Assembly: GCF_023566355.1 (NCBI RefSeq)
Contig: NZ_JAKNSW010000001.1
Coordinates: 1 to 64,000 of the forward strand
DNA length: 64,000 nucleotides
Reading direction: 5' to 3'
DNA from: Mesoplasma sp. JKS002658
Lineage (GTDB): Bacteria > Bacillota_I > Bacilli_A > Mycoplasmatales > Mycoplasmataceae
Below are positions 7,806-63,714 of the stretch, one piece after another; within the stretch, counting starts at the first letter, position 1; each line of letters begins with the position of its first letter. The notes under the pieces are model-generated. The model had not been told where the DNA came from. It was given only the letters and a program-made list of their open reading frames with translations, and made no database searches. A program made the translations under genes and the position numbers.

Positions 7806-7834
7806 TTGTTCTTGGTTTTAGATATGATGATAAT
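7806..7834 (+). promoter_or_regulatory. Promoter of the rplJL operon
   Basis: TTGTTC (7806-7811) and GATAAT (7829-7834) are separated by exactly 17 bases. This is one of the best -35/-10 pairs in the window. It lies between the rplA terminator and the L10-type leader. Confidence 0.6.
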
Positions 7835-7840
7835 GCTATT

Positions 7841-7958
7841 AGTACCGAAGAAAGTAACTGGGAAACCTTAATTTGTTACCGAGGAAAAAGCTAGAACATA
7901 TCTTTATTAATAAAAGTTTGCTTTTTAACCTTGGTCGAAAATTAGATCAAGGTTTTTC
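7841..7958 (+). promoter_or_regulatory. L10-type ribosomal leader with attenuator upstream of rplJ
   Basis: A ~150-base leader separates the rplJL promoter from rplJ. The first part contains paired segments such as AGTAAC...GTTAC around 7854-7886. The second part ends in a clear intrinsic terminator: AACCTTGGTC / GATCAAGGTT with five T (7927-7958), placed before rather than after the gene. In other Firmicutes the L10(L12)4 complex binds such a leader and promotes termination. Assignment to that class rests on position and the terminator; the kink-turn was not verified. Confidence 0.65.
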
Positions 7959-7994
7959 TTATTTATTCGTTAAACATAAAAAGGGGGGAAATAG

Positions 7995-54032: not shown

Positions 54033-54043
54033 TGAATATCAAA

Positions 54044-54109
54044 TTCTTATATAGGGTAACACAATGGGTTACTGACTCCACCCCTACCAGAAATCAGGGA
54101 CTATAAGAA
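54044..54109 (+). promoter_or_regulatory. 2'-deoxyguanosine-type purine riboswitch (aptamer) upstream of the first lipoprotein gene
   Basis: P1 is TTCTTATA (54044-54051) with TATAAGAA (54102-54109). P2 is GGTAAC with GTTAC(T), and its loop contains ATGG. P3 is CCCT with AGGG, and its loop contains ACC, so GG and CC can form the loop-loop kissing pairs. The J2/3 joint reads ACTCCACC, in contrast to the guanine/adenine TTTCTACC. The base equivalent to position 51 of B. subtilis xpt is C, the change known to favour 2'-deoxyguanosine. The overall pattern TATA-GGGTA-C-AATGGG-TACTGAC matches the 2'-dG-I aptamers known from Mesoplasma florum. The joint J3/1 is ACTAT. Confidence 0.85.
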
Positions 54110-54130
54110 CATACTCTAGGTATGTTTAAT

Positions 54131-54169
54131 GAGGATTATTACTTTTGATAATAAATAATCCTCTTTTTT
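54131..54169 (+). terminator. Terminator in the first riboswitch expression platform
   Basis: GAGGATTATT / AATAATCCTC (perfect 10 bp) with a T run lies 21 bases after the aptamer and before the coding region. Two bases before it ends AACATAC...GTATGTT (54108-54126), which can also pair with AAACATACCT (54208-54217) next to the ribosome-binding site. Confidence 0.75.
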
Positions 54170-54232
54170 ATGGGTCTGCTGATTGAGAATACGTGTTTTC
54201 TTTTTTAAAACATACCTGAAGGAGGGTGAATA

Positions 54233-55639
54233 ATGAAAAAAATCCTGCCTTTATTAGGGGGTCTTGTAATTACCAGTATTGCCTCTACAAGCGTTGTTTC
54301 TTGTATTGCTCCCCGATATGCTGTGGGTAGTCCGGGACAAAGGGTGGTAGTTTCCACCAGTGGTCGGATTAACGATCATTCTTTCAATCAAGATGCTTAT
54401 ATTGGCATGAAAAACTTTGTTAAATCAGAATACGGATTGGATGGTCAGAACAATTATGTTGAAGCTGCTGATACCTCAAGCACTTCGGTGGTTTCTGCCT
54501 ATCGTTTAGCAAAACTTAAAAGGGCTGATGCTGTTATTTTACCAGGATTTAATCACATAACTACAATTGCTGCAGCAGCAAAGCTTTTTGGTGAAAAAAC
54601 TATTGTTTTAGTTGATGGAACACCAGGAAGTACTGACAAACTTTATGATCATGTTATTAGTGTTTTATTTAATTCTCAACTAGGAGGTGTGCAAGCGGCT
54701 TTTGATGCTGCGTATTGAGCAACTACTAAGGTTAGGGATGCCCAAGGCAATGAAACAGAAAAAATGCAAGGTGATGCGAGTGGGGATGGAAAAATTACCT
54801 TCGGTACTTTTGCTGGAGCTTCAAATAAATATGGAGTTGATAACTACATGTGAGGCTTGTTATTAGGAATGGATCTATTCAATAAGTGATATGGTGAAAC
54901 TCGTGGTTATGTTCGTCTTGCAAACACTGATGATTATAAAATTGAATCAGTAAAAGTGACCAACACCAGTAGTTACGACTGGTGAACTAATAATTTTGAT
55001 TTAGGAGGAGCTACCAAATCAGGGATTGTTTCTAAGCTAGTTGATGATCGCAAGGCTGATATCATTTTTCCTGTGGCTGGACCTCAAATTGAAGATGTTT
55101 TAAATTATCATCCTCGTAGTAGTAGTTATAAAGGTTTACCTTATGTTATTGGAATTGATGTTGATCAAGCTGAAATTTTTAATGGTTCTGCTTATCACGG
55201 GCGCTTTATTACTAGTGCAATTAAAAATGTTCATAGTGCCACAAAAATTGCTTTACAACACGCTCAATCGTTAGTAAATAAACAAGTTGATGGAAGTTAT
55301 GCTGCCAAAACAAGTGCTGATGAAATGTGGGATGGTACTACTCCTGGACGTTATAAAAACTGGTCAGTTGACCTTTTAGATGATGGTAGTGGTAAGTACA
55401 AAATCAGCAAGCATTATTTACGCTTGTTTGATGGAGAAAATGGTGATAACCCTGATGAAGCAGGATCACTACCAGTTGATGCAAGTGATGTGCTAATTAA
55501 TTTTGTTAATAACGCGTTTGCTGATTTAGGAACTACAGCAATTGATTATTTGAACGGAAAAATTATTACTAAGTTAGCTCAAGAGATTATCGATAGAGCT
55601 AGAAACGAAGAATTTAGACTAATTTATGATGAAAAATAA
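54233..55639 (+). CDS. BMP-family substrate-binding lipoprotein 1
   Basis: A 468-residue lipoprotein. The signal peptide ends in lipobox VVSC with Cys24. The BMP domain (Med/PnrA type, purine nucleoside binding) is recognisable from INDHSFNQDAYIGMKNF and the DxxxxxF-type AADTSSTSVVSAYRLAKLKRADAVILPGF. Around residues 168-190 an inserted segment contains a dockerin-like DASGDGKI (D181). Four TGA codons encode Trp. A strong GGAGGG precedes the ATG. Its paralogue follows; both lie before the ABC transporter genes, whose nucleoside-uptake role is known in related mollicutes. Confidence 0.88.
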
Positions 55640-55690
55640 TTTAGTAATAAATTAAAACCTCATGTTAAAATTAAATATATAAAATAAAGG

Positions 55691-55761
55691 AAATTCTTAT
55701 ATAAGATATCAGAACGGGATATTGTTTCTACCTCTAACCTATTAGAGACTATGAGAATTTA
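55691..55761 (+). promoter_or_regulatory. Guanine-class purine riboswitch upstream of the second lipoprotein gene
   Basis: P1 is an 11-bp stem AAATTCTTATA / TATGAGAATTT. P2 is GATATC / GATATT with loop AGAACGG. J2/3 is the canonical TTTCTACC. P3 is TCTA / TAGA with loop ACCTAT (CC for the GG kissing pairs). J3/1 is ACTAT, with C at the guanine-specifying position 74. A copy of the P1 5' strand, ATTCTTAT, lies at 55782-55789 and could pair with the P1 3' strand (55751-55758) instead, a switch-like alternative. No T-run terminator is seen, so control may be at the level of translation. Confidence 0.85.
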
Positions 55762-55835
55762 GTAGTTAAAAATAACTTCTGATTCTTATCTGAAACATTC
55801 CACTTTTGTTTGAATCTTGGCAAGAGGGAAATGGT

Positions 55836-57191
55836 GTGAAAAAAACTTTAGGCATTTTGTCATCAATTGGTGTGATTGGCATTAGTACTACAAGTGTAAT
55901 TGGATGTATTGCTCCTAAATATGCTAGTGGTGTTGAGGGCCAACGAGTGGTTTTAGTTACTGAAAGTGGTAAAGTCGACGATCACGCTTTCAATGAAGAC
56001 GCTTACAAAGGAATGAATACCTATTTAATGTACAATTATAACCTGATTGGGAAAAATAATTATGTTGAGTCAGTCGACGCTTCTTACACTTCCCTGGTTT
56101 CAGGTTACCGTTTAGCAAAACTTAAAAAAGCTGATGCGTTGGTTTTGTCAGGATTTGCTCATATCCCTACTTTAAGTGAAGCTACCAAGTTGTTTAAAAA
56201 TCAATCTGTAATTCTGATTGATGGAAAAGCAGACTATGATAATCCTGAATATCAAAATGTGATTAGTATTGTTTTTAATTCCCAAATTGCAAGTATGCAA
56301 GCAGTTTTTGATGCTGCTTATTGAGCAACTACCAAGGTTAAGGATGCTCAAGGCAATGAAACAGAAAAAATGCAAGGTGATGTTAATGGGGATGGAAAAA
56401 TTACTTTTGGTACTTTTGGAGGAACCTCGTTTAAGTATGCAGTAGATAACTATATGTGGGGGGCATTCTTGGGAGTTGAACTTTTCAATCAGTATTATGC
56501 CACTACCTCTGAATCATACCGAAAAATTTATTTAGCCAATACTTCCACTCATCAAGTGGGTGATTTGAAAATTACTTCTTCATCCGATGCTGCTTATTAC
56601 AGCGGTAATTTTCAATTAGGAGGGGCTACTAAATCAGGTATTGTTGATAAGTTAATTGGTCAAGAAAAATCAGACTTAATTTTTCCGATTGCTGGGCCTC
56701 AAATTCAAGATGTTTTAAACTATATTCCTCGTGGGTTTAATGGTCGACCTTACATTATTGGGGTGGATGGAGATCAAGCGACTGCTTATGATAGTGATGC
56801 TGTTCACGGACGTTTTATTACTAGTGCAATTAAAAATATTAGTAGTGCCACACAAGCTGCCTTACAACATTCTTCTTCTTTAAAAGATAGGAGCGGGAAT
56901 GCTTGAACTGACGTGTGGGATGGTCTTTCTCCAACTCCAGCTTTGAATTGGTCCGTGGATTTGGTTGATGATGGTAGTGGGAAATATCAACTTAAAACCC
57001 ATAAGTTATTCTTATATGATGAAGAAAAACAAGACGATGCACCAGATGCTACCAATGTCTTAATTAATTACGTCAATGCTGCTTTTGAAAAAACCAGCAT
57101 GGAGATTAGTAGTTATATGGACGGGGCTTTAATTCAGAAGATTGCTGAGGAAATTGTTGCAAAAAAGTTAATCGCGGTGAAATTAAGTTAG
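55836..57191 (+). CDS. BMP-family substrate-binding lipoprotein 2
   Basis: A 451-residue paralogue of the preceding lipoprotein. The signal peptide carries lipobox VIGC with Cys24, and matching BMP segments follow (VDDHAFNEDAYKGMN, SVDASYTSLVSGYRLAKLKKADALVLSGF). The insert has a dockerin-like DVNGDGKIT. GTG at 55836 gives a normal signal peptide, with AGAGGGA about 7 bases upstream; a TTG ten codons earlier is less likely. Three TGA codons encode Trp. It is followed after 42 bases by the ABC ATPase gene. Confidence 0.88.
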
Positions 57192-57233: not shown

Positions 57234-58790
57234 ATGAGTGAATATGCTGTAGAAATGCTTGATATTACCAAAACGTTTAACAACGGAATGATTGTTGCAA
57301 ATGATCATTTAACTTTAAGGGTAAAAAAGAATGACATTCATGCTTTGGTTGGTGAAAACGGGGCTGGTAAATCAACGTTGATGAGTATTTTATTTGGGAT
57401 GTACCAACCAGATAGTGGTGAAATTAAAATTAATGGTGAACCAGTAATTATTACTGATCCGATTAAAGCGAATCAATACAAAATTGGGATGGTTCACCAA
57501 CACTTTAAGTTAGTGCAGGTGATGAAGGTGTGAGAAAACATCGCGCTGGGAGTAGAAGAAACTAGTTTAAAAATCTTTACCAACCAAGCGAAGATTAAAC
57601 ACCAAATTACTAACATTATGGATCAATATGGTTTACACGTTGACTTGAACGCTAAGATTGAAGATATTTCTGTGGGGATGCAACAACGCGTAGAGATTTT
57701 AAAGATTCTTTATCGTAATGCTGATATTTTGGTCTTTGATGAACCAACAGCAGTGCTAACTCCTAAAGAAATCGATAATTTATTAATGATTATGAAGAAC
57801 TTACAAGCTAAAGGGAAGACGATTATTTTTATTACTCACAAACTTGAAGAGATTAAAAAGGTTGCTACGAAAGCGACAGTTATTCGTCTTGGTAAAAACG
57901 TCCGAGAATTTGATGTTAAAGAGATCAAAGGCAACGTGCTTGGTGAAGCTATGGTAGGAAGAAAACTTGTTAAAGTTAAAAACAAAGATCATACTCATGG
58001 CAAGAAAAAAGTTTTTGAAGTAATTAATTTAACTGTCAAAAAGGAAAGCGATCACCGTTTAAATGCTGTAGAGAACTTAAGTTTAACAATTCATGAAGGA
58101 GAAATTCTTGCAGTTGCAGGAGTAGAAGGAAACGGACAAAAAGAACTAATTGAAGCTGTTACTGGTTTACTTAAACCATCAAGTGGAGGAATTGTCTTTA
58201 AAGGGGTTAATATCAATAACACTTCGATTAAAAAGCGTTATGAAATGGGAATGAGTCATATTCCTGAAGACCGCCATAAGTACGGAATGATCATGGATTT
58301 TAACGTTTTAGACAATATTGTCTTACAAAGTATTGATAAGAAACCGTTCACAACTTTAAAAATGATTAATCAAAACGAAGTGGAAAAATATGGTGAACAA
58401 ATTATTCACCAGTATGATGTGCGCGGTAGTCGCAACGGAAAAGCATTATCACGAAGTCTGTCAGGAGGGAACCAACAAAAGTTTGTGGTTGGAAGAGAAA
58501 TTAATCGGGCTCATGACTTACTAGTAGTGGTTCAACCAACTCGTGGATTAGATATTGGCGCAATTGAATATATCCACAGTCAAATCTTAGCAGAAAAAGC
58601 GCAGAATAAAGCGGTGTTACTAGTATCTTATGAACTTAGTGAAGTCATGAGTTTAGCTGATAACATTGCAGTGATTAATGATGGTCGGATTATTAAAACT
58701 TTGAGTGCTAATAAAGTTAAACGAGCAGAGATTGGGGCATTAATGGGTGGTAGCACCTTAACTCAGAAAGGGGTTAATCTTCATGAATAA
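57234..58790 (+). CDS. Sugar/nucleoside-type ABC transporter ATP-binding protein (two ATPase domains)
   Basis: A 518-residue protein with two ABC domains. The first has GENGAGKST, the signature ISVGMQQRVEIL and FDEPTAVLTP; the second has a degenerate Walker A, GVEGNGQKE, and the signature LSGGNQQKFV. This RbsA-like arrangement is shared with the BMP-dependent nucleoside transporters (for example YufO-type). One TGA (Trp) is at about residue 100. ATG at 57234 follows AAAGGA; an upstream in-frame start adds 13 unlikely residues. The stop overlaps the first permease gene. Confidence 0.92.
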
Positions 58791-61428
58791 ATGAAATTTA
58801 TTCAACTGAAAACTACAGCGAAAAACTCGTGATGTATTTTCTTCTTATGAAACTCGTGAGAAGTTTAAATATATTAAGGGATCAGTTTTTGCAATTGTTT
58901 TAGGTTTAATTATTGCTGGGATTATTATTGCTGCTCAAAACGTCAATCCCTTTGTCTATTTAAGAGAATTATTTAATGTTTCTTTTAGTAGCTTATTTGT
59001 TGAACAAACATTCCAATGATTGGCAATTTATATTGTTGTTGGTTTAGCAGTTGGGCTTGGTTTCAAATCCGGGATCTTTAATATTGGGGTCTCTGGACAG
59101 ATGTTATTAGGGGCAGGAATCTCAATTATTTATTATCGTTTAGCAGTTGGTGATAATCACGCGATGCATGCTGGTGATATTATTGTTGTTTTCTTGATTT
59201 GTCTGTTTTCAGGAGCATTCTTAGCAGGAATTGCTGGTGCTCTAAAAGCTTTATTCAACATTCACGAAGTTGTAACTACAATTATGTTGAACTGAACAAT
59301 TTGATACTTGTTAAAATTCTTGTTTACCAAGTATCAAAGTTTGACTGGAGCTGGAATTAGCACGAGTGCTTCAATGCCTTCAGATCAACTAGCAATTAAT
59401 GGCAGTTCAATCGCCATTCCTTTAATTATTGCCTTTATTTGTTTGGTTTTGGTTGCTTTCTTATTAACCAAAACTGTTTTTGGTTATAAATTAAAAGCGG
59501 TTGGTTCCTCACCAAATGCAGCAAAATATGCTGGGTTTAATGTTAAAGCCAAAATTGTTGAATCAATGTTGATTTCTGGGGGATTAGCAGGAATCGCTTC
59601 GTTTGTTAACGTGTTAACTTTAAATCCCAACATTTCCTTTACTGTGGACAATCTTCCTGCAATTGGTTATGATGCGATTGCGATTTCTCTAGTAGCCTTT
59701 AATAATCCAATCGGAATCTTCTTCACTTCGTTTTTGTGAGGAATTTTACAATCAGGAGGAGCTGGAACTGCATCTTTATTTAACATGTCGAACCAAACCT
59801 CAAGTTTAATCTTTGGAATTATTGTTTATTTTGCTGCCATTTCAGTAGTCTTTATTAATTATTATCCAATCTTGAAGTTGAAGATTAATTTAGCTAGTTT
59901 TTCTTCGCGTACGACTCGTGAACAAGTTCAAAAGTTATGATCAGAACGTCAAAAGATTATTAAAATTCGTTGAAGTTTGCGTCCTGGTTTAGATGTGCAA
60001 AACTACACTCAAGCAATGAAAGAAGAAAAGCGTCTTTTAAAACTTAGTTATCAACAAGGGGTTGAAAAGATTTCTTATCAAGAATACAAAAAACAAGTTC
60101 AAGCAATTAATCAGCAAATTCGTGCTTATGTTCGTGATTATAGAAAAAACCTAAGAGAAGTTGATAAAAAACTTGGTCAAGCAATTAAAACTGTGAAAAA
60201 AGATAACTACATTCAACGTTTGACCTTAGCAAAACAAGGGATTAAACGTCGCGAACGATTGTTATTAAGAATCAGCGATCAAAACGCCTTGGGACATTTA
60301 GAAGAAGTTAAAGCAACTTATATCGGAATCCAAGACTACTTAAAACAAGAAGCGCACAACTATCATCACTGACTAAAAACTCAATTAGAACCAATCAAAG
60401 CAGAATATCAACAAAAGGTTTATGAAATTGAAGCTTGATATGAAGGGAAAAGTGGAGATTTAACTCACTACTGAACTTGATTTAACTTATCAATTGAAAC
60501 TAAGGGAGAAATCAAAAAACAAAAGATTAAGACCAAGAATAAAGTTGAATCGTTAAGAACTGATTATCGTTTGAATAAGAGCGCTATTCGTCGTGACAAA
60601 ACATTAGGTGGGGCAGAAAAACAACAAGCACTTGCTAAGCTAAAAACAGCAATCACTGATCAAATTATAGCTTTAAGAGAAGCTGGTCAAGCAGTGATTG
60701 AACAACAACAAGCACTTGCGGTTAATGCAAAAACTAATTATCAAAAGGCTAAAAATAATGTTCAAGTTAGAGCAAAACTTAAAACGATGCAAAAGAGTTA
60801 TCTTCACAAGTTGGATAGTGCTAAAGAAACTTATCAAAAAAAGGTCGTTGCTCTTAAAGAAGCGAATGAAACTCGTCGTCACCAGTTTGATAAAACCACT
60901 AGTCAGGGTCAAATTGCAGCAATGCAAGGATTTGTTAGCACTTATGATAACTATAAAAATCAGTTAAAAAACCAACAAGTTTATTCAGGAATTTATTTAA
61001 ATCAACTAGCAGAAAAAATTACTTTAATGTGAGTCGACTTACAAACAATCAATCACGATAGTTTCTTTACTGCTCAAGATACTCGAGTTTCTTTCTATAT
61101 TAAGAAGCGAATTTATCAATGATTAGCAAAAGAAGAAAAGTGGGTTGAAGAATCAAAGATTGCTTATCATAATCTGGATGAAACTAGAGAAATTAAAGTG
61201 GACACAAAGCGAATAATGACCACTTATAAACAGAGTTTGGTGTTATTCAGTGAAGATTATAAAACTGAAAAACAACAAATTATGAACAACAAAGATTTAA
61301 ACCATCAAACCAAAGGTTTGATGCTAAATGAAAATGAACGAACTTATAGTGAACGTTTACAAACCTATATTTTAGATTTGGAAGCAAAAACCAGAAGCCG
61401 AAGTTTTCTTGAAAGTGAGGTGAAATAG
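58783..61428 (+). CDS. ABC transporter permease with a very long cytoplasmic coiled-coil tail
   Basis: An 881-residue protein read through 14 or more TGA (Trp) codons without any true stop. Residues 1-370 are a permease of the ribose/nucleoside type (YufP-like), with a GLGFKSGIFNIGVSGQMLLGA start and the motif VGSSPNAAKYAGFNVKAKIVESMLISGGLAGI. From about residue 385 to 881 the sequence is hydrophilic and rich in Gln, Lys, Glu and Leu, with long coiled-coil stretches. Such a tail is far beyond the ~350 residues of the family. It overlaps the ATPase gene by 8 bases and ends 3 bases before the second permease. The tail's role is unknown. Confidence 0.9.
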
Positions 61429-61431
61429 CTA

Positions 61432-62352
61432 ATGTTATCCTTTTTAGATTATGCTTTTGCTTTATGTGCAATTTTATTATTAGCAGCACTTTCTGGATAT
61501 GTCAGTGAACGAAGTGGGGTTGTTAACATCGGTATCGAAGGAATGATGAGTATTGGGGCATTAGTCGTAGCAATGATTGGCTCAGCGGTGAACAAAAGTT
61601 CCACTCACAACCTAGATCAACTTTGAGTCGTCTTGGTGGGAGGAATTGTTGCTGCTGTGTTTGCCCTCTTCCACGGGTTTGCCTCAATTACTTTAAAAGC
61701 CAATCAGGTAATTTCAGGAACAGCAATTAATATTCTGGCTGCAGGAATCGCATTATTCTTTGCTACTTCAGGATTTTTTGGTTCAAGTGCCACAGATATT
61801 TCTACTAACTTTCATTCTTTATATGTTGATGCCAATCATGTTCTTCCAGTTTGATTATTAATCGGTCTAGGAATTGCGGTGTTATTACTAGTTTTCTTTA
61901 CTTTCACTAAGTTTGGAATGCGCTATAAAATGGTTGGAGAAAATCCTAATGCAGTTGATGCAGCAGGAATTTCAGTAACTAAATATCGTTACCTTGCTGT
62001 CTTTTTATCTGGTTTCTTAGCTGGAATTGGTGGAGGAGTGATGATTTGCACCATTGTTGGAGGAGGAACTTTTGGAGGAACCACTTTTGGTTTTGGGTTC
62101 TTAGGACTAGCGATTCTAATCTTTGGTCAATGAAATATTCTTTATATTACCATTGGGGTTGTTGCTTTTGGGTTCTTATACACTTTAGGAAACCAATTAG
62201 GGACTTTAACCACTAATATATCAATTAAGAATAATGCAGGAATCTTTAGAATTATTCCCTTTGTCTTAACAATTGTTGTCATGGTGATCTTTTCGAAGTG
62301 ATCACACGCTCCAGCAGCGAACGGGCAGCCTTTTGATAAGGCCCTGCGGTAG
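61432..62352 (+). CDS. ABC transporter permease 2
   Basis: A 306-residue inner-membrane permease of the YufQ/BMP-type nucleoside transporter. The opening GYVSERSGVVNIGIEGMMSIGALVVAM and the KMVGENPNAVDAAGISVTKYR segment are family signatures. It forms the heterodimeric channel with the first permease. Five TGA codons encode Trp. It starts 3 bases after the previous stop. A terminator follows. Confidence 0.92.
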
Positions 62353-62577: not shown

Positions 62578-62619
62578 GTAAAATAAGAAATGAATAAATA
62601 GGGAATGGTGATTATAAAA

Positions 62620-63714
62620 ATGGAAATTTTGATTTTAGGGAACGGGTTTGAATGTCAGTATAACCCCAATGTCCGCAATTTTAACCAAAAATTTGTTGAG
62701 TTTATTAATGATGAGAATAAAACTAAAGAATTATTAAAAAAGATTAAAAGCTTTTGTGAACATGATCAAAAAATTTATCAAGCGATAGTTACGACGATTC
62801 GGAATGAAATTGAATTTAATGAAAATTTTATTTTAGAATCAGAATTACGTGATATTGGGATGCATTTAGCTAATGCTCCAGCTCGAACGCTGGTTGCAAG
62901 TGAGAATTTAATTTTTCATTGTTTAAAAAATTTAGTTGGTTTGATTATCAATGAATTCACCACTGATTATCGACAAATTGATCAATATATGGATTTTCGC
63001 ATGAAAGAATTACCAGACCAAATTTGAACAACAAATTATACCAATTCAGCTCAGGAGGCTTACGAATCTTGAACAGAAGGTTCTCTTTTTCAACCCCTTG
63101 ATTTGACTAATTCCTACTCCAAAGATTCTTTGAAAAAAGCGAAAGTGATTTATTTACATGGTCAATTTTTATTTCGAACCACATCAACATTTTCACCAAC
63201 AACAGCTTATCTTGGCGCTTCCCAACTTGGTGATATTTATCAAGCCAATTCTCCTTATTTTAGTGCTAATCAACCAGTTAAAGCAACTCAAAAATCAAGC
63301 AAAACTTTTATTGATGATCAAACCTTTCAAAACATTGAAATTAATTTAGCAAAGAAAAACGAAAACCCGTTAAAAAGTGCTATTTCTAAAATTCTTTGGA
63401 ACCAAAGTGAAGTCATTAAAATTAATATTTTTGGTTTATCGGTAAATAATGATGAAGGATTATTTAAAATTCTCTTAGACGAACTTGAGAAAGCAAACGT
63501 TAGTTATGAATTAAATTTCTACTACTATACGCAAACTGATAAAAAGAATTTTGAAGTATTTAAGCATGATTATTTGAATAGTACAAATGATAATAATTCT
63601 GTCGTTAATCCTTTTATTCATTATAATTTTGGGAACAATCCTCAAAAAGTTAAAAAACGAATTAACATTTTGCCATCAAAAGAATACAAGGGGTTTAAAT
63701 TAAAAAAGAAATAG
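62620..63714 (+). CDS. AbiH-like abortive-infection family protein
   Basis: A 364-residue soluble protein. The N-terminal ILILGNGFECQYNPNVRNFNQKFVEFI matches the GNGFD...L.T.Y.DF start of AbiH. A TTNYTN segment at residues 137-142 corresponds to the family NYT motif, YLHGQ (His180) to the HG motif, and INIFGLSVNNDEGLFKILLDEL near 269-290 to the G.S...D segment. Departures are Glu in place of the first Asp and Leu in place of His in the GHS-like motif. AbiH confers phage resistance in lactococci; its mechanism is not well defined. ATG at 62620 follows GGTGAT, an anti-16S match, by eight bases. The gene stands alone. Confidence 0.72.

Follow-up and report, generated by a model that had tools for sequence, protein, structure and literature searches.

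Does a nucleoside importer of Mesoplasma sp. JKS002658 receive feedback from two different purine ligands, each sensed by the aptamer ahead of one of two paralogous lipoprotein genes? The host is a wall-less mollicute that reads TGA as tryptophan, with a genome of 767,909 bases in four contigs and a completeness rating of 95%. We analyzed the first 64,000 nucleotides of contig NZ_JAKNSW010000001.1 (hereafter the window), in which a Pfam scan places two PF02608 (Bmp/PnrA) lipoprotein genes in one operon with those of an ABC ATPase and two PF02653 permeases, the composition of a PnrA-type nucleoside ABC importer.

54233–55639, + strand, lipoprotein 1 (PF02608, Bmp/PnrA-like)
55836–57191, + strand, lipoprotein 2, GTG start (PF02608; TmpC/PnrA 2fqw match)
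57234–58790, + strand, ABC transporter ATPase (Pfam scan)
58783–61428, + strand, permease 1, PF02653, followed by a long C-terminal extension (Pfam scan)
61432–62352, + strand, permease 2, PF02653 (Pfam scan)

PnrA-type receptors take purine nucleosides in general as substrates, and TmpC, whose structure is in the PDB, is known as PnrA, a purine nucleoside receptor of Treponema. Lipoprotein 2 matches the TmpC/PnrA structure (PDB 2fqw). PF02608 receptors, an ABC ATPase and two PF02653 permeases are common to the PnrA/TmpC system and the operon described here, whereas the latter has two receptors in tandem, each gene preceded by a riboswitch of its own, and a long, extra C-terminal region in permease 1. 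That permease comprises 881 aa, of which PF02653 covers residues 75 to 351 only; about 500 highly charged residues follow. Just 3′ of the operon, positions 62605 to 63714 encode a 369-aa protein without a Pfam match, and elsewhere in the window positions 7827 to 7968 match the ribosomal protein L10 leader (RF00557, 62.7 bits). The first-pass annotation had placed two purine-class aptamers before paralogous lipoprotein genes, which Rfam matches to both leaders and the 53% identity between lipoproteins 1 and 2 bear out. Searches of the whole host genome with RF00167 and RF01510 returned no purine-class riboswitches beyond these two, elements 1 and 2.

Element 1 lies ahead of lipoprotein 1.

54045–54108, + strand, element 1 aptamer, apparently of 2′-deoxyguanosine (2′-dG)-I type with U22-A52 and C51 (RF01510 51.8 bits; relatives; pair counts)
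54079, + strand, C51, the nucleoside-selecting position (read in the sequence)

The aptamer has a P1 of 7 bp, a P2 of 6 bp, the L2 loop ACAAUGG, a short P3 of 4 to 5 bp, and CC in L3. Its pocket, in xpt numbering, reads U22 A23 G24; G46 A47 C48 U49 C50 C51 A52 C53; A73 C74, with U22 at 54052, C51 at 54079, A52 at 54080 and C74 at 54101. It is reportedly position 51 above all that decides whether a nucleobase (U) or a nucleoside (C) is recognized (PMC7287874), and the C that had been reported at this point of J2/3 is indeed present. Element 1 has the C51 and C74 expected of a 2′-dG-I aptamer and lacks the U51 of guanine-I riboswitches. The M. florum 2′-dG-I consensus carries C22-G52 (PMC8872408; also the Rfam alignment), where element 1 has U22-A52, a compensated change common to 16 RNAs in four genera.

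With the M. florum 2′-dG-I RNA (RF01510, nrdF leader), element 1 shares the three-way junction, C51, C74, G24 and A47, similar P1 and P2 sequences, and a terminator 5′ arm that is predicted to compete for the P1 5′ strand; it differs in the 22-52 pair, in its larger L3 and in its putative target, the gene of a nucleoside-binding lipoprotein, the genus having no ribonucleotide reductase (RNR). Because U22-A52 stands in place of C22-G52, element 1 reads as a sister variant, not an identical member, of the M. florum RNAs, and the match proposed earlier breaks at the 22-52 pair. The shell U22, C51, A52 and the C that pairs with the ligand recur in 2′-dG-II, a proven class marked by a G-C pair closing P1 and a two-nucleotide J3/1 insertion (PMC8872408) and reported from Bacteroidetes; in element 1, by contrast, A21-U75 closes P1, and J3/1 is AC without the insertion.

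Within the window, only element 1 exceeds the 2dG-I threshold (51.8 bits against a cutoff of 51, E 5e-8); element 2 scores 47.4 bits, under the cutoff of 51. Not falling below threshold in this covariance-model check is weak support for element 1, as U51 RNAs pass too. Calling the ligand from the RF01510 bit score was rejected: RNAs with U22-A52/U51 reach 64.7 bits (G195) and those with C22-G52/U51 reach 81.3 bits (G159). The gathering score thus admits many U51 guanine-type RNAs, at up to 81 bits, and is cleared by the C51 element 1 by 0.8 bit; because U51 RNAs pass as well, a score above threshold is no evidence for 2′-dG, and the ligand of a purine-class RNA cannot be called from it.

Downstream of the aptamer, folding of the growing transcript yields the elements of a transcriptional switch.

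54042–54050, + strand, strand P, the P1 5′ strand plus three upstream bases, partner of the P1 3′ strand or of strand T (transcript-length folding)
54109–54125, + strand, spacer hairpin between aptamer and terminator (folding)
54129–54137, + strand, strand T, antiterminator partner of strand P or else folded largely into the terminator 5′ arm (folding)
54131–54169, + strand, intrinsic terminator, 10-bp stem followed by six U (folding)

P1 forms first. When the transcript reaches 54140, a 9-bp helix (54042–54050 with 54129–54137) is favored over P1 by 4.8 kcal/mol, and from 54164 on the terminator wins and P1 is again nearly optimal. The P-T helix, which includes two G-U pairs, has a shuffle p of 0.06, weak as a single case. 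Across relatives, strand P pairs better with the terminator arm than strand A, the P1 3′ strand, does in 30 of 31 C51 aptamers that have a nearby terminator: all 21 C22-G52/C51 RNAs and nine of ten U22-A52/C51 RNAs, the tenth being a tie (5 versus 5) in the leader of a congener (G151), where the advantage of strand P is absent. NMR of the M. florum RNA showed an exchange among strands P, A, T and H, in which P is bound to A when the aptamer forms and to T when the antiterminator forms (PMC5838219). The P-T antiterminator of element 1 is predicted to follow the same logic as that OFF switch. Element 1 would accordingly act as a transcriptional OFF riboswitch for 2′-dG, probably with the same direction in the cell: when plentiful, 2′-dG would bind the three-way junction, pairing with C74 and having its nucleoside accommodated by C51, and would keep P1 closed; the P1 5′ strand would then be unavailable to the terminator 5′ arm, the terminator would form, and no lipoprotein 1 would be made.

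Element 2 precedes lipoprotein 2 and the ABC genes.

55663–55671, + strand, TGTTAAAAT, perhaps the extended -10 of a promoter separately serving element 2 (read directly)
55695–55756, + strand, element 2 aptamer, putative guanine type with U22, U51 and C74 (RF00167 45.7 bits; pocket read)
55751–55789, + strand, hairpin that takes the P1 3′ strand and excludes the aptamer (folding; counterpart in G151)
55796–55833, + strand, hairpin hiding the Shine–Dalgarno sequence of lipoprotein 2 (folding; counterpart in G151)

RF00167 matches positions 55677 to 55771 with 45.7 bits (cutoff 37), the aptamer core spanning 55695 to 55756. The pocket reads U22 A23 A24; G46 U47 U48 U49 C50 U51 A52 C53; A73 C74, with U51 at 55729 and C74 at 55749. 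Element 2 has U22, U51, A52, C74 and the J2/3 sequence GUUUCUAC in common with guanine-I (RF00167, B. subtilis xpt), and differs from it in an L3 of four nucleotides (CCUA). A four-nucleotide L3 is a trait of 2′-dG-I, other purine riboswitches having seven (PMC8872408). The over-cutoff score and the combination of U22, U51 and C74 agree with the earlier proposal of a guanine-type aptamer, for which guanine would be the ligand. A search of the element 2 leader for a terminator found none. The congener has TGCTAAAAT where the host has TGTTAAAAT, and a promoter scan was uninformative (16 matches versus 12.8 in shuffles). Shine–Dalgarno release was rejected as the mechanism of element 2, the hairpin staying closed with P1 on or off; because forced P1 leaves the Shine–Dalgarno sequence closed, we claim no switching direction for this element.

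The papers covered here describe 2′-dG-I as a class of M. florum, known above all from a reductase operon. RF01510 was run over 320 genomes of the order and RF00167 over 60 of the family; 140 stretches were retrieved, and the pocket was read in 111 RF01510 aptamers from 34 genomes, 109 of which could be parsed. The parsed set comprises 26 aptamers with C22-G52/C51, 16 with U22-A52/C51, 19 with C22-G52/U51 and 48 with U22-A52/U51; at 22-52 the pair is always C-G or U-A. RNAs with C51 were seen in 16 genomes from six genera, so that C51 members of this class are common in related genera rather than few, as the first-pass annotation had it, and they include a U22-A52 sub-variant intermediate in sequence between guanine-I and M. 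florum 2′-dG-I. Of this sub-variant, element 1 has 15 further representatives in relatives (16 RNAs in all, four genera); every one keeps G24, and most keep A47. Pairs are kept in 91.5% of cells across 14 of these RNAs, with 10 pairs changed on both sides, a level reached by 0 of 500 shuffles; slid controls stay below 44%. Among 84,980 species genomes, the exact U22/C51 core was found only in Acholeplasma multilocale (G202), Mesoplasma photuris (G203) and M. seiffertii (G204), a count that is a lower bound because the P1 letters were fixed and the host's own genome and near ones were possibly not covered.

We compared position 51 with the genes downstream, which were clustered by BLAST and named from the window Pfam scan and genome searches with PF02867, PF00268 and PF00860; the names guaA, guaB, purA and DHH rest on our reading of the sequences. 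RNR genes follow 12 aptamers, all with C51 (eight C22-G52, four U22-A52), whereas a gene for guanine permease or a guaA, guaB or purA gene stands behind 34 aptamers, all with U51, and behind none of the 42 with C51. Lipoprotein genes stand behind both types. The separation over the 109 aptamers from 34 genomes is complete (Fisher 2.6e-11), although this is not a true probability, since the genomes are related and their independence is overstated; the split holds across several genera on either side. The U22-A52/C51 RNAs themselves precede nrdF in G202, G204 and G205 and a PF02867 reductase in G209.

One U22-A52/C51 RNA, element 1, sits on nucleoside uptake in cells without reductase. No match to PF02867, PF00268 or PF13597, which together represent RNR of any class, was found in the host genome (four contigs, 95% complete) or in the single-contig genome of its congener, whereas PF02867 is present in 50 of the 60 genomes of the family. 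Each of the two genomes encodes two over-cutoff dNK kinases, and PF00860 permease has no match in the host genome. Because the genus is without RNR, deoxynucleosides must be imported, and with RNR missing and deoxynucleoside kinases present, feedback by 2′-dG on a nucleoside receptor would be sensible. Position 51, the gene-association split, the M. florum-like antiterminator and the failure to find RNR in the genus together support 2′-dG as the probable ligand of element 1 and guanine as that of element 2. The two receptors of one importer would then receive separate feedback, from the deoxyguanosine pool and from the guanine pool. We consider this joint account, with element 1 as a 2′-dG transcriptional OFF switch and element 2 of guanine type, likely to be correct. 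Structures, conservation, gene content and gene associations were observed directly; from them we infer the ligands, the OFF direction in the cell and the substrate of each lipoprotein.

The general appetite of PnrA-type receptors for purine nucleosides, taken with the TmpC match, would also suit an element 1 that senses guanosine and 2′-dG alike and feeds back on a general purine nucleoside importer. Its U22/C51/A52 shell is that of 2′-dG-II, which recognizes guanosine too (PMC8872408), and 2′-dG-III binds guanosine and 2′-dG with similar affinity (PMC9295807); because the 2′-dG-II pocket with the same shell binds guanosine well, strict 2′-dG selectivity of element 1 may fail. We nevertheless judge a guanine-nucleoside sensor unlikely, as the same sub-variant precedes nrdF and another RNR gene in relatives, where 2′-dG is the sensible signal, and the genus itself is without RNR.

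More drastic readings fare worse. Were the change at position 51 neutral, element 1 would be an ordinary guanine riboswitch and guanine would answer for both paralogs; the retained U22-A52 pair of guanine riboswitches and the non-discriminating RF01510 score would allow this, but C51 and G24 are kept in 16 RNAs of four genera, with A47 in most, and the absence of guanine permease, guaA, guaB and purA behind all 42 C51 aptamers makes it the least credible possibility. Hardly more credible is that the aptamers are remnants and that element 1 or 2 no longer regulates. Element 2 does lack a visible link from P1 to the ribosome site, as its forced P1 leaves the Shine–Dalgarno sequence closed, and degenerate aptamers occur in relatives; against this, pockets and helices are intact in both elements, the terminator and the predicted antiterminator of element 1 are complete, and the congener retains the two leaders with matching architecture.

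On the favored account of separate 2′-dG and guanine feedback, the paired paralogs are a natural experiment in which one nucleotide would change the riboswitch ligand, the C51 copy being predicted to bind 2′-dG and the U51 copy guanine. The congener has the same order, a C51 aptamer then a U51 aptamer, with a Bmp lipoprotein after each, and M. photuris also carries a C51/U51 pair before Bmp lipoproteins (G203, 337536 and 344427). The lipoprotein tree makes the two M. photuris proteins sisters (100/100) and sets them apart from the pairs in the host genus. A single ancient duplication behind all dG/guanine pairs is rejected by the AU test (p 7.5e-59 with the three U51 lipoproteins held together). 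For the host genus, one versus two duplications gives p 0.086; aptamers group by type between species (0.88, 0.84), whereas proteins group by species without firm support, and because these groupings differ we leave the number at one or two. Given the 87% identity between the aptamers of the M. photuris pair, the position-51 change most likely happened in place there. A further change is seen in the Mesoplasma group, where the Bmp aptamer of G162 has C51 and its orthologs have U51. The related genomes suggest duplication, and then a change at a single key nucleotide, as the origin of dG/guanine pairs. The chances seem to us about even that a riboswitch-receptor unit was duplicated and its ligand switched through position 51 at least twice independently, in the host genus and in M. 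photuris, giving one importer separate 2′-dG and guanine feedback and placing a 2′-dG sensor on uptake, with RNR missing in both lineages.

Several other arrangements were seen among the relatives. In G157, five 2′-dG-I type aptamers stand in a row (L033, 36256–41538), each followed by a different lipoprotein gene, an array that looks like an expanding riboswitch-lipoprotein cassette. Six aptamers of the Mesoplasma group (L038, L044, L048, L057, L062 and L075) are C22-G52/U51 with the J2/3 sequence GACCUGC and lie ahead of guaA; by their sequence they represent a 2′-dG-I-like frame in which position 51 holds the guanine-type base. Two RF01510 matches, L034 (G157, 49597) and L067 (G161, 31317), have a broken J2/3 or J1/2 and look like decaying aptamers. 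The U22-A52/C51 aptamers L072 (G151, 5783), L082 (G209, 193805) and L097 (G201, 73480) lie ahead of genes that, judged by sequence alone, encode a probable nuclease and two DHH-type phosphoesterases, which hints at 2′-dG control of nucleic-acid degradation genes.
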